NCBI RefSeq assembly: GCF_014084125.1
Contig: NZ_CP048405.1
Coordinates: 5,952,001-6,016,000, forward strand
Direction: 5' to 3'
DNA: 64,000 nucleotides
Source: Streptacidiphilus sp. PB12-B1b
GTDB lineage: Bacteria > Actinomycetota > Actinomycetes > Streptomycetales > Streptomycetaceae
The position numbers and the translations under genes were made by a program. This document shows, piece after piece, positions 58,490 through 61,978 of the stretch (position 1 is the stretch's first letter; each line of letters starts with the position of its first letter). The notes below the pieces were generated by a model. The model worked only from the letters and a program-made list of their open reading frames with translations, did no database searches and was not told the origin of the DNA.

Positions 58490-59644
58490 TCAGGCCCGCC
58501 CGACACTGACGCGCCACCCGCCCCGCGACAGCACGGTCCGCCCGTCCGGGGTGATGGTGACCGCCGCCCCGTACCCGGGGAGCGCCCCCTCCGACAGCCA
58601 GTCATGGCGGATGCCGTCCAGGACGTCCCACAGCCGCCTGGGCCCCGCCTGGTGGACGGTCGGCGGCTCACCGTGGCGGCCGGTGGCCCGCGCCCATGAA
58701 CCGTCGGCATGGACCATGACCGCCGTCCGCACGCCGTCCGCGTCCTGCCGGTAGCCGTGCTGCACACCGGGGGTCGTCAGGGCGAACGCCGACAGCAGCT
58801 CCCAGGTCTCCGCAACGTGGACGACGGGGTACCGGCCGGGGCCGACCTCTTCGCCCTCGTCGGTCCAGGCGCGCCGGGTGCCGGGCGACGGCGGGTAGTC
58901 GTCACCCGAGCGGGTGGCCATGAACCCCGCGCGCTCCCAGGTGACCCTTCCCCGCGCGCTGCCGTCGGGCGCCTTGTCGGCGGTGACGACCAGGCCGGTC
59001 CCGGCGAGGTTGGTGACCAGCCGGCCGCCGTCCCTGAGCGCCGCCAACCAGCTTGCGGGAACGCCGGGCAGGCCGACCGTGGACACGATCCGGTCGTACC
59101 TCCCTGGCAGCGGCCCGGTGAGGTCGCAGACCGCCAGCGTCGGGTGCAGCCCGAGCGCATCCAGCCGGCCGGAGGCGGCCCGGACGAGGTACGGGTCCAC
59201 GTCCACGCTGGTGACCTGCTGGTCACCGAGCCGGCGGGCGAGCAGCGCGGTGCCGTAGCCGCTGCCGGTGACGCACAGCACCTCGGTCGTGTCGGTGATC
59301 AGCGCGTGCTCGAACATCGACAACACCAGGGCCGGGAGCGTGCTGGACGAGGTGGGCAGGCCCTCCGGGTGGTCGTCCGGCCCGGCAGCGTCGGCGTGGG
59401 CGCTGCCGACCCGGGTGACCAATGTCCGGTTGCTGTACGCGGCGTTGAGCCACCGCGCGGGGTCGTCCGCCCCCACTCGCAGCGCCATGCCGCCCTCGTC
59501 CGCCAGGTACCGCCACCAGCGCGGCACCAGCAGATGCCGAGGGGTCGCGGCGACGGCGCCGTGCCACGGCGACGAGGGGTGCACGACCTCGTCCGCCAGC
59601 GCCGCCGCGCGCGGCTCCCAGTCCAGGACAACGCCCATGTTCAT
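58490..59644 (-). CDS. PIMT-like O-methyltransferase of a peptide/protein-modification locus
   Basis: 384 aa from ATG 59644 (MNMGVVLDWEP). The N-terminal third has ATPRHLLVPRWW and the methyltransferase core EVLCVTGSGYGTALLARRLGDQQVTSVDVDP, a SAM-binding G-rich loop; the ST-rich PTSSSTLPALVLSMFE replaces the GQTIS motif of true L-isoaspartyl methyltransferases. This matches the PIMT-related methyltransferases seen with RiPP maturases (ATP-grasp or FxLD systems). A C-terminal domain of about 150 aa follows. It starts seven bases after the radical SAM stop, so the two form an operon. Confidence 0.8.
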   Translation of the reverse strand: MNMGVVLDWEPRAAALADEVVHPSSPWHGAVAATPRHLLVPRWWRYLADEGGMALRVGADDPARWLNAAYSNRTLVTRVGSAHADAAGPDDHPEGLPTSSSTLPALVLSMFEHALITDTTEVLCVTGSGYGTALLARRLGDQQVTSVDVDPYLVRAASGRLDALGLHPTLAVCDLTGPLPGRYDRIVSTVGLPGVPASWLAALRDGGRLVTNLAGTGLVVTADKAPDGSARGRVTWERAGFMATRSGDDYPPSPGTRRAWTDEGEEVGPGRYPVVHVAETWELLSAFALTTPGVQHGYRQDADGVRTAVMVHADGSWARATGRHGEPPTVHQAGPRRLWDVLDGIRHDWLSEGALPGYGAAVTITPDGRTVLSRGGWRVSVGRA

Positions 59645-59651
59645 CAACCTC

Positions 59652-60620
59652 TCAGTACTTCGGATTGCAGGCCGGAGTTTCCGCCGGGGAGCAGTCACTG
59701 CCGTCGCTGTTCGGGTTGCACGCGGTCGCCCGGAAGTCCTCCCAGGGGTCGACGCCCGGAGACGGTTGGCACGAATCCTCCTTCGGTGTGCAGGAGTCGG
59801 GCGCACACGCCCCGTTCGCCTGCAGAGTCGGGACGCGGACGGCGATGTTTCGCCACGCCTGACTGTCGAGGATGTCCGCCAGCCGCATGCCGTGCACGTT
59901 GCCAGCTGTCATCATCCCGGCCGACATCACGCACCCGGCCACGTCGCCGTTCGGCATGACGGCTGCCCGGCCGCGCGTACAGTTTCCGCACAACTCAGCC
60001 GGATCCTGCCCCTCGCCCGTTTCGGCTCCGCGACCGATGCCCCGCATGCGGTCGGTGCGGATGCTGGTCACGCCGAGTGCGCGCAGCTCGGCTTGGGCCT
60101 CTTCGCTCCGCTGGCCCTCCCGCATGTCCACCAGCGCTGCCCGCACCGGAATGCCGTAGTCCAGGGCCCTGATGATGTTCGCCTTGGTCTTCGCATAGGA
60201 ACCCCGGCGCTTGGTGATGCGTTCGTGCTCGTCGGCCCGGTCGCTGTAGTACGAGGTCGCCAGCGTCACCCCACGCCGGCGCAGTACGCACCACACCTCG
60301 GGCCGGATGTGGATCAGGTTGCTGAATACCTCCACGGCCATACCCTGGTCGACGGCGCGATTCACCAGCTCAGGCAGGTCAGGATGCAGGGTGGCCTCGC
60401 CGCCGATGAACTGGATCTGGTTCACACCCAAGTCGGCGGCCTGGTCCAGCACGCCCAACCAGTCGTCGCGGGTCATATCCCCGTCCGTGCCGCTCGGCCC
60501 GGACGAGTTGTAGCAGTGTGCACATTGAGCCTGGCACATGCGCGTGATGTCCAGTGCGAGGAACCGGGTCGTCCTGCTCGCTCCGGTCTGCGCCGCTTCA
60601 TTGGTCGTGATCACTGTCAC
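59652..60620 (-). CDS. Radical SAM/SPASM-like protein with Cys/Pro/Asn-rich tail
   Basis: 322 aa. DITRMCQAQCAHCYNSS gives the CxxxCxxC [4Fe-4S] motif near residue 32; GGEATLHPDL follows, then auxiliary-cluster-type Cys in CGNCTRGRAAVMPNGDVAGC. The last 50 residues are rich in Cys, Pro and Asn (CAPDSCTPKEDSCQPSPG, later ACNPNSDGSDCSPAETPACN), ending in Tyr. Such proteins modify peptides or proteins; no precursor gene is seen. Start is GTG 60620 or 60614, with AAGGAG upstream. It forms an operon with the methyltransferase. Confidence 0.85.
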   Translation of the reverse strand: MTVITTNEAAQTGASRTTRFLALDITRMCQAQCAHCYNSSGPSGTDGDMTRDDWLGVLDQAADLGVNQIQFIGGEATLHPDLPELVNRAVDQGMAVEVFSNLIHIRPEVWCVLRRRGVTLATSYYSDRADEHERITKRRGSYAKTKANIIRALDYGIPVRAALVDMREGQRSEEAQAELRALGVTSIRTDRMRGIGRGAETGEGQDPAELCGNCTRGRAAVMPNGDVAGCVMSAGMMTAGNVHGMRLADILDSQAWRNIAVRVPTLQANGACAPDSCTPKEDSCQPSPGVDPWEDFRATACNPNSDGSDCSPAETPACNPKY

Positions 60621-60799
60621 GTGCTCCTTCTGACGAGTAGTGCAACCCTGAGCGCCCATTGGGGGTTTTCAGGATGCCCGGGCAGATCGTGGGACGCCTT
60701 CGGCCGGCGTGCGGTGAGGCACTCTCTGCTCAGGCGAGCGGTGACCTGAGCCAGCTACCGGTTTCGCGCCAGCCCCTGCCGGGGCATGTCCTGATGTGA

Positions 60800-60877
60800 C
60801 GCTCACTCAGTGTCAGGGAGCCGTCGCTCAGAGACCAAGGCCCTGCGTATGAGCGCTCGATCGCTCATATATGAGCG
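60800..60877. promoter_or_regulatory. Array of five TGAGCG/CGCTCA boxes between radical SAM and XRE genes
   Basis: CGCTCA at 60800, 60825 and 60862 and TGAGCG at 60850 and 60872; the last three are heptamers ATGAGCG/CGCTCAT forming a palindrome plus a direct repeat across 60849-60877. It lies in the divergent promoter region and is the natural operator candidate for the XRE regulator. Confidence 0.6.
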
Positions 60878-60904
60878 CATTGTCATTCATAGGGAGGATG
60901 CGCG

Positions 60905-61978
60905 TTGGCACGGCCGAAGAAGCCGCAGTCGCCGCCGAATGGCGCGGCAGTCCTGTGGGGTGAGGAACTCCAGTTCTGGCGTAGCCAAGCCGGTCTGACC
61001 CAAGGCCAACTGGCTGCGAGGATCCCTTGTGACCAGTCCTGGATCTCTGGCCTTGAGAATGGGAAGGCCGTGGCCACAGCGGCCATTGCTACACAGATCG
61101 ATGGTGCGCTGGGTACCGGCGGAGTACTGCTGCGAAGCCTCAAGTACGTAGTGCGGGAGGCCACCAGCGGGTTCTATCCCGATTGGTTCAAACAGTACGT
61201 CGCGCTTGAAGCACAGGCAGTGACCTTGCACGAGTGGTATCCCATGAGCATGCCAGGCCTGCTGCAGACCGAGCTGTACATGCGTCACCAACTTGCGCTG
61301 TGGGGACACAGCCCGGAGCGGGTGAACGAGCTGACCGAGGCCCGACTGTCCAGGCAAGAGCTACTCCGGGGAACGACCCCTTTGCGAGTGCTCGCCGTCC
61401 TGCACGAGTCGGTCCTCCACAATCAAGTAGGCGGACCCAAGGTGATGGCACATCAGCTCGCCCATCTCTTGCGCATGACTTGTCTTCCCAGCGTCACCGT
61501 GCAAGTGGTACCCGCACAGGCACCCCTCCTCACGTGGCTCGACAGCACCGTGGCGCTCGTCGGGATGCCTGATGGCGAAACGTGGTCCTATGCGGAGGCA
61601 CTTGACAGGGGTTGGGTCACCAAAGAGCCAGCAGCGGTACAAGGTACCGTCGCCCGTTACGATCGGGTTCGGGCCTCAGCACTGTCGGCACACGAGTCCC
61701 GCGAAGTGATCCGCCGCGCAATGGGAGAGCTGGTCAACATGACGCCCGCTATCGATCTGTCCAAGGTCTCTGTCTTCAAGTCGTCCTACTCCGGCGGGAA
61801 CGCCGGATGCGTCGGCACGACCCGTGATCTCGTCTCCGCCGGCCTGGCCCCCGTCGTGGACACCACGCTGGGACTCGCCTCGCCCGTTCTGCCGTTCACC
61901 ACAGCGGCCTTCGCCTCGTTCGTCGCGGCCGTGAAGGCAGGCGAGTTCCCCGCCGGCGAGAAGTACGTCACCGCTTGA
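60905..61978 (+). CDS. XRE/DUF5753 regulator fused to a DUF397 domain
   Basis: 357 aa from a TTG at 60905, with AGGGAGG seven bases upstream. HTH near residues 20-50 (FWRSQAGLTQGQLAARIPCDQSWISGLENG), then a DUF5753 domain (LLQTELYMRHQLAL, VLHESVLHNQVGG). From about residue 279 the protein continues into a DUF397 domain (VSVFKSSYSGGNAGCV, FTTAAFASFVAAVKAGEF), normally a separate 60-80 aa gene. An in-frame ATG at 61739, preceded by GGGAGAG, could still start the DUF397 part alone. GC content looks lower by eye than in its neighbours. Confidence 0.9.
   Translation: MARPKKPQSPPNGAAVLWGEELQFWRSQAGLTQGQLAARIPCDQSWISGLENGKAVATAAIATQIDGALGTGGVLLRSLKYVVREATSGFYPDWFKQYVALEAQAVTLHEWYPMSMPGLLQTELYMRHQLALWGHSPERVNELTEARLSRQELLRGTTPLRVLAVLHESVLHNQVGGPKVMAHQLAHLLRMTCLPSVTVQVVPAQAPLLTWLDSTVALVGMPDGETWSYAEALDRGWVTKEPAAVQGTVARYDRVRASALSAHESREVIRRAMGELVNMTPAIDLSKVSVFKSSYSGGNAGCVGTTRDLVSAGLAPVVDTTLGLASPVLPFTTAAFASFVAAVKAGEFPAGEKYVTA

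Follow-up and report, generated by a model that had tools for sequence, protein, structure and literature searches.

The window analysed here, a stretch of 64,000 nucleotides from Streptacidiphilus sp. PB12-B1b (contig NZ_CP048405.1, positions 5,952,001 to 6,016,000 of the forward strand), contains adjacent genes for a radical S-adenosylmethionine (rSAM) enzyme and for a peptide aspartate O-methyltransferase (PAMT) of the protein isoaspartate methyltransferase (PIMT)-like type. We propose, at a probability of about 65%, that the rSAM protein serves both as enzyme and as precursor, and that its C-terminal tail is modified first by the rSAM enzyme and then by the PAMT. The anatomy on which this proposal is built comprises a recurrent gene pair, a rule by which tail cysteines stand in Cys-x-Pro (CxP), an Asp motif in the loci with a PAMT, the predicted disorder of the tail, the absence of a separate CxP peptide from the loci, and the lack of room, in the window protein, for an RRE (recognition element of the ribosomally synthesized and post-translationally modified peptides, or RiPPs).

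The comparison covered 118 distinct rSAM homologues, that of the window included, after removal of eight duplicate loci. In every one of these except L065, which is split by an insertion, a tail follows the last Twitch helix. Family-wide, 530 of 543 tail cysteines are in CxP, and 107 of the 117 cysteine-bearing tails are without exception to the rule; in the bodies of the same proteins the figure is 4 of 831. Shuffling of the residues within each tail (1000 rounds) gave a mean of 99 CxP cysteines and a maximum of 127, and 60 mutually dissimilar tails still have 306 of 319 cysteines in CxP. Proline is rare at other positions relative to the tail cysteines (+1, 31; +3, 9; +4, 15; +5, 43), and all 20 amino acids occur at the middle position of the motif. 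The tails are mostly 22–104 residues long and carry 2–14 cysteines at varying spacing. Since middle residue, tail length, cysteine number and spacing all vary, CxP itself seems to be selected, and the rule is not accounted for by descent of one fixed sequence. The whole Asp unit is present in two copies in L041, L053, L060, L061 and L129, and L041 and L053 also have a degenerate third one; in L053 the repeat unit is CPPNDSNDCSPANTPACNPAY. In the AlphaFold model the predicted local distance difference test (pLDDT) score is above 90 for most of the rSAM core and below 50 over residues 283–328 and 330–335 (35–45 for the blocks from residue 281 on), and the tail is thus predicted to be disordered. 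The CxP rule, the tandem repeats and this predicted disorder favour the tail as substrate, short of proof. The sequence-only reading had offered three candidates, namely the protein's own Cys/Asn/Pro-rich tail, a substrate encoded elsewhere and a host protein; the first has gained from this evidence and the other two are less favoured.

In Pfam the rSAM protein scores 65.4 bits with Radical_SAM and 26.9 bits with SPASM, and it possesses the SPASM/Twitch domain found in the maturases of sactipeptides and ranthipeptides. The full seven-cysteine SPASM motif, which serves auxiliary clusters I and II (Aux I and Aux II) in the anaerobic sulfatase-maturating enzyme (anSME), is absent from the window protein; between barrel and tail only the columns of C224, C227 and C243 have Cys in more than half of the rows. 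By analogy these three are probably ligands of an Aux I cluster, one site of which is possibly open. The nearest solved folds are those of SkfB (Z 25.3), SuiB (22.8), CteB (19.7), anSMEcpe (19.3) and EpeE (18.9), at a sequence identity of 22% or less, and BlsE, PqqE and viperin-like chains score within the same range. The top matches are thus rSAM enzymes that modify peptides, and the modelled fold supports peptide chemistry, short of proof. CxxxCxxxC (as in CQLTCASHCY) replaces CxxxCxxC in L038, L039, L040, L077, L080, L082, L089 and L103, all of which have a PAMT, and L063 has Tyr at the first Cys position.

It is considerably less probable that the tail is a metal- or Fe-S-binding extension, contributing to auxiliary clusters or to a redox relay, and that the enzyme acts on a host protein or on a peptide whose gene lies elsewhere. 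C285 would suit such a role, as it is Cys throughout the PAMT group (fraction 1.0) and appears to sit where Twitch domains place the last Aux I ligands, but the Aux II motif CX2CX5CX3C is found in none of the 118 tails, the number of tail cysteines ranges as widely as given above, and we know of no cluster rule which requires Pro at +2. The disorder of the tail in the model also speaks against it, weakly, since AlphaFold has no clusters. If the tail is instead the substrate, its position is of interest: it leaves the modelled fold after the last Twitch helix, probably near the last Aux I ligands, and the tail cysteines could bind there in turn. SkfB, MoaA and CteB have an Aux I cluster with an open site, to which in CteB a substrate cysteine is bound (PMC6231123).

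SkfB, whose chemistry is Cys-directed, carries an N-terminal RRE (PMC6231123). The window open reading frame (ORF) has at most 41 residues ahead of CxxxCxxC, a segment of low model confidence, and its translation most likely begins some 15 codons after the listed ATG, at a GTG with AAGGAG nine bases upstream; there is no room for such an element ahead of the barrel of the window protein. This is what would be expected if the substrate is tethered. Beyond the window protein, the argument applies to about half of the homologues: 57 of 107 have, even in their longest open frame, 45 residues or fewer ahead of CxxxCxxC (median 42) and 78 have 80 or fewer. The others are longer, with as many as 366 residues where frames were extended mechanically.

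No six-frame, stop-to-stop segment of the window combines at least four CxP with more than 60% of its cysteines in CxP, a filter which the rSAM protein itself fails because of its cluster cysteines. The 117 homologous loci likewise contain no further ORF of at least 25 amino acids with at least four CxP and more than 70% of its cysteines in CxP. Nor is there beside the window PAMT a small separate precursor of the kind known from imiditides and pamtides, in that no CxP-dense ORF was found in this region, which was also read by eye. The sequence-only statement that no precursor is visible therefore holds for a peptide of the CxP type, and its own counter-case, rSAM homologues beside a recognised precursor or a known pathway, was not seen in the rSAM family. 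It is unlikely that the true substrate is a separate precursor encoded far off, for which the tail would be a recognition element or decoy. Some PAMT loci do share small, uncharacterised and CxP-less neighbours on their upstream side (families 8 and 9, with 14 and 11 ORFs), but a separate CxP-dense ORF occurs in none of the 117, and once rSAM and PAMT are set aside, XRE regulators form the commonest neighbour family (55 ORFs), every other reaching 28 at most.

A PAMT is encoded next after the rSAM, on the same strand, in 75 of the 118 homologues; the pairing is thus more than chance. The motif D[GSN]xDC is present in 67 of the 75 PAMT-adjacent tails and in 2 of the 43 tails without a detected PAMT, both of the latter belonging to loci cut by contig ends (L036, L113, L121 and L123 run into contig ends). 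In 12 aligned tails D41, D44 and C45 are invariant. L065, in which an IS30-type transposase-like sequence splits the rSAM core from its tail (L065:7730-9211), was scored as lacking both PAMT and motif in the family counts and in the Fisher table, and was excluded together with L073 from A1 and A3; beyond the insertion lie a tail with DDSSDC and a PAMT. The Asp motif resembles, by analogy, the sites of known PAMT substrates, which include TxDGC in lanthipeptides and D(T/S)AD in lasso peptides (PMC13001092, PMC10787088). Since most PAMTs need a cyclised precursor (PMC11285071), an order in which the rSAM enzyme acts first would fit.

The methyltransferase ORF was listed as 58490-59806 from a GTG; we adopted as start the ATG at 59644, which lies 7 nt past the rSAM stop codon and gives a protein of 384 amino acids. 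The long ORF matches PCMT in Pfam (40.7 bits). Its best NCBIfam match is TIGR04188, “ATP-grasp peptide maturase system methyltransferase” (244.9 bits, cut-off 380), over profile positions 2–362 of 363, followed by TIGR04364 (FxLD). As in imiditide and pamtide systems the enzyme is a PIMT homologue with an extra C-terminal domain, at a score under the curated cut-off, and by its profile matches it resembles the PAMT group, nearest the graspetide-type subfamily. A survey from the PAMT side took in 54 places from 55 rows (53, plus G147, which is L221), the second half of the split G013 gene being left out. Twenty-five places adjoin a CxP-tailed rSAM (including L210, which is broken, the insertion-split L065, and L221), 16 adjoin an ATP-grasp-like motif, recognised through the motif and not through a profile, one is at a contig end and 12 are of other kinds; at none of the 54 does an rSAM without CxP stand beside the PAMT. 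Those with the ATP-grasp-like motif look like graspetide loci, which would show the kinship of the methyltransferase. The ATP-grasp motif of these related loci does not occur in the six frames of the window, where no ATP-grasp profile was searched.

DG and DS are sites prone to isoaspartate formation. It could be that such sites in the tail undergo spontaneous isomerisation, with the PAMT acting there in repair only and keeping the Asp, while the rSAM enzyme has a different substrate; some RiPP-associated PIMT homologues do methylate isoaspartate (PMC13001092), but the enzyme is nearest a RiPP subfamily (TIGR04188), its relatives include the loci with an ATP-grasp-like motif, and CxP is retained where the PAMT is missing, all of which makes this the least probable of the alternatives.

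In a few places the parts of the system occur in other combinations. L194, L202, L203 and L195 have apparent tail remnants directly ahead of the PAMT and no rSAM core, L203 and L195 having been judged by eye; the label “tail, no rSAM” given to L192 looks, by eye, like chance. In L202 (L202:3851-3986) the rSAM-less PAMT is preceded by a short ORF (MGKAKNTVSAAKNAIRRDTGKL...) with a good ribosome site, which overlaps a CNPNLDGSDCAPAETPACDP stretch in another frame and may be a remnant or may once have been a stand-alone precursor. L194:2830-3986 has a kinase of the clade A type (see below), a tail remnant and the PAMT in a row with no rSAM core, which looks like the outcome of a recombination between two cassette versions.

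The sister rSAMs which lack a PAMT retain CxP without the D(G/S/N)xDC motif; their clades A, B and C are those of the FastTree tree. In all 24 loci of clade A a protein of family k7 is encoded 0–69 bp downstream on the same strand (e.g. L062:7856-8653). Kinase-like residues are conserved in k7, its model is confident (mean pLDDT 92.6) and the nearest fold is APH(9)-Ia; at E up to 1, three of 11 members match Pfam APH and seven match TCAD9, and the representative itself has no Pfam match. The k7 protein may phosphorylate the tail. Distant PAMT relatives (27.8% and 31%) lie further away in L057 and L046 of clade A, and L048 has a PAMT and also a kinase relative 2.1 kb on. In clade B (10 loci) an APH-type relative, k13, is downstream on the same strand in seven loci and on the opposite strand in L131, and an AAA ATPase stands directly behind the rSAM in five, between the CxP-tailed rSAM and the APH-type protein (L143:5899-6648, also L134, L138, L149 and L157). 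The six loci of clade C have neither a k7/k13 APH-type partner nor an AAA ATPase. Five of its tails (L067, L068, L070, L071 and L073) share CTPPQFLPMCGPCGPCVPSVGHCDP, and these loci have no common gene directly downstream, save for one family in L070 and L071. Tail types differ as well, clade A having mostly ...CxPGxP...CxPR/K endings and clade B runs such as CxPxCxPxCxP. These observations invite a broader and more tentative reading, to which we would give slightly under even odds: a RiPP-like class in which the rSAM carries its own C-terminal CxP-repeat substrate, with a shared and possibly new radical modification and an exchangeable partner, PAMT or kinase-fold phosphotransferase, matched to the tail type.

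The mechanism that we propose for the window pair would run as follows. The barrel and Twitch domain would act on the disordered tail, either in cis or between the two subunits of a dimer, the target being the cysteines in the CxP motifs of the enzyme's own tail. The outcome would most likely be a sulfur-to-carbon link (thioether), with sulfatase-type oxidation second. Once the tail is modified, the PAMT would methylate the Asp with which its D(G/S/N)xDC motif begins, and the methylated Asp would collapse to an aspartimide which opens to isoaspartate; the tail might afterwards be cut off or be kept attached. The tail as substrate, the order of the steps, both chemistries, the release and any biological role are what we infer from the anatomy. 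Sulfatase sites also start with C-x-P (PMC11500405). Formylglycine chemistry, suggested by analogy with the sulfatase CxPxR site, was demoted to one option, as Arg is found at +4 in just 20 of 525 sites.

Several observations weigh against enzyme and precursor being one. At least one non-CxP cysteine is found in 10 of the 117 cysteine-bearing tails, and the PAMT-adjacent L221 has two of its three tail cysteines in CxP and one exception. A structural role as Aux I ligand is possible for C285, the first cysteine of the tail. Eight of the 75 PAMT loci are without an exact D[GSN]xDC. Lasso, graspetide and imiditide PAMTs have a WxxxGxP motif, which is missing from the window methyltransferase and from the last 90 residues of all 74 homologous methyltransferase ORFs; most carry GxLP at about this position. 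FastTree placed the PAMT-less rSAMs in three clades; the better, mixture-model tree (113 rows, SH-aLRT 89) instead has one change in PAMT state and seven in the motif. On it the link between PAMT and motif is one independent evolutionary event, and the Fisher p value of 6e-23 for their association is overstated for this reason. Lastly, no protease or exporter was identified near the pair, where most neighbour families are without annotation, and the release of the tail lacks support on that account.

The features are collected in Table 1. The sequence-only reading had described a leftward rSAM and methyltransferase pair divergent from an XRE-DUF397 regulator; the ORFs lie where it placed them and Pfam agrees, the regulator matching DUF5753, HTH_31 and DUF397. 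This protein is the probable local regulator of the pair. XRE relatives are present in 51 of the 117 homologous loci, in 38 of them divergent and upstream; at the density of the window genome (16 per 7.67 Mb) about three XRE-DUF5753 loci would be expected among 117, although other genomes may be denser.

Table 1. Features of the rSAM-PAMT locus (positions in the window)
Feature	Position	Strand	Remarks
Radical SAM/SPASM(Twitch) enzyme with fused C-terminal CxP tail	59652..60659	-	335 aa; Pfam matches
PIMT-like peptide Asp O-methyltransferase (PAMT)	58490..59644	-	TIGR04188 match, 16-member alignment
XRE-DUF5753-DUF397 regulator	60905..61978	+	Pfam
CxxxCxxC (C42, C46, C49), ligands for the SAM-binding 4Fe-4S cluster	60513..60536	-	Cys fractions 0.98, 0.99, 0.99 in 118 homologues
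Twitch cysteines C224, C227, C243	59931..59990	-	Cys fraction 1.0 across 118 homologues
Tail, residues 277-335 (C285, C290, C297, C314, C323, C331)	59655..59831	-	6/6 Cys in C-x-P; proposed substrate/core peptide
DGSDC (D319-C323)	59691..59705	-	Proposed Asp methylation site of PAMT

Among 297 genomes from the same family, at least 44 carry relatives of the rSAM at E 1e-40 or better, and 28 plasmid records contain relatives at E 1e-20. A query with the alignment yielded 80 further rSAM loci from GTDB contigs (of 368 candidates), mostly from Streptomyces and other actinomycetes, with one record titled Acidobacteriota metagenome-assembled genome; the single rSAM sequence as query gave no match to the GTDB contigs. 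The pair of L079 (CP109288.1) is carried by a circular plasmid of 126 kb; a protein annotated as phage portal is encoded about 1 kb away, which suggests that the carrier is a phage-plasmid. A defence system was considered and rejected, the PADLOC matches being weak only (pVip, pVip-kinase, mad2, HTH_VI, RmrA).

The gene pair without a substrate was already known, as were PAMT RiPPs, rSAM RiPPs and fused precursors, each separately. Two points were absent from the sequence-only reading: 249 two-gene rSAM-PAMT clusters, their substrate not found, have been published (PMC10787088), and a kinase-like protein takes the place of the PAMT in part of the rSAM family. Like the published clusters, the window has adjacent rSAM and PAMT genes and no precursor gene, and we infer that the window family is the same. 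The section of that paper on these clusters names no substrate; here the CxP tail of the rSAM itself is proposed, and if this is true it answers what the 249 clusters modify. With imiditides/pamtides and the lanthi-, lasso- and graspimiditides the system shares a PIMT-like methyltransferase and a conserved Asp that as a rule has a small residue after it, but in those the substrate is a separate precursor. A 2026 review uses the word “radical” 0 times in its main text (PMC13001092), and our literature search, whose coverage left out many subscription papers, bioRxiv and supplements, returned no paper on CxP tails or on rSAM enzymes fused to a precursor. SkfB, CteB, SuiB and anSME are alike in fold and in the Twitch/SPASM domain, yet they act on separate substrates, unlike the proposed fused tail. 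Graspetides have an ATP-grasp ligase in the cluster, of which the motif-based search found no sign in the window. The borosin enzyme is a backbone N-methyltransferase, and to our knowledge borosins involve no radical SAM enzyme and no CxP rule. The proposed architecture is nevertheless like that of the borosins (OphMA), where precursor and modifying enzyme form one fused protein that modifies itself (PMC11285071). If the proposal is true, Cys-x-Pro is a simple code by which such peptides may be found and designed, and the peptide chemistry of rSAM enzymes gains a self-substrate architecture described otherwise for borosins (PMC11285071).

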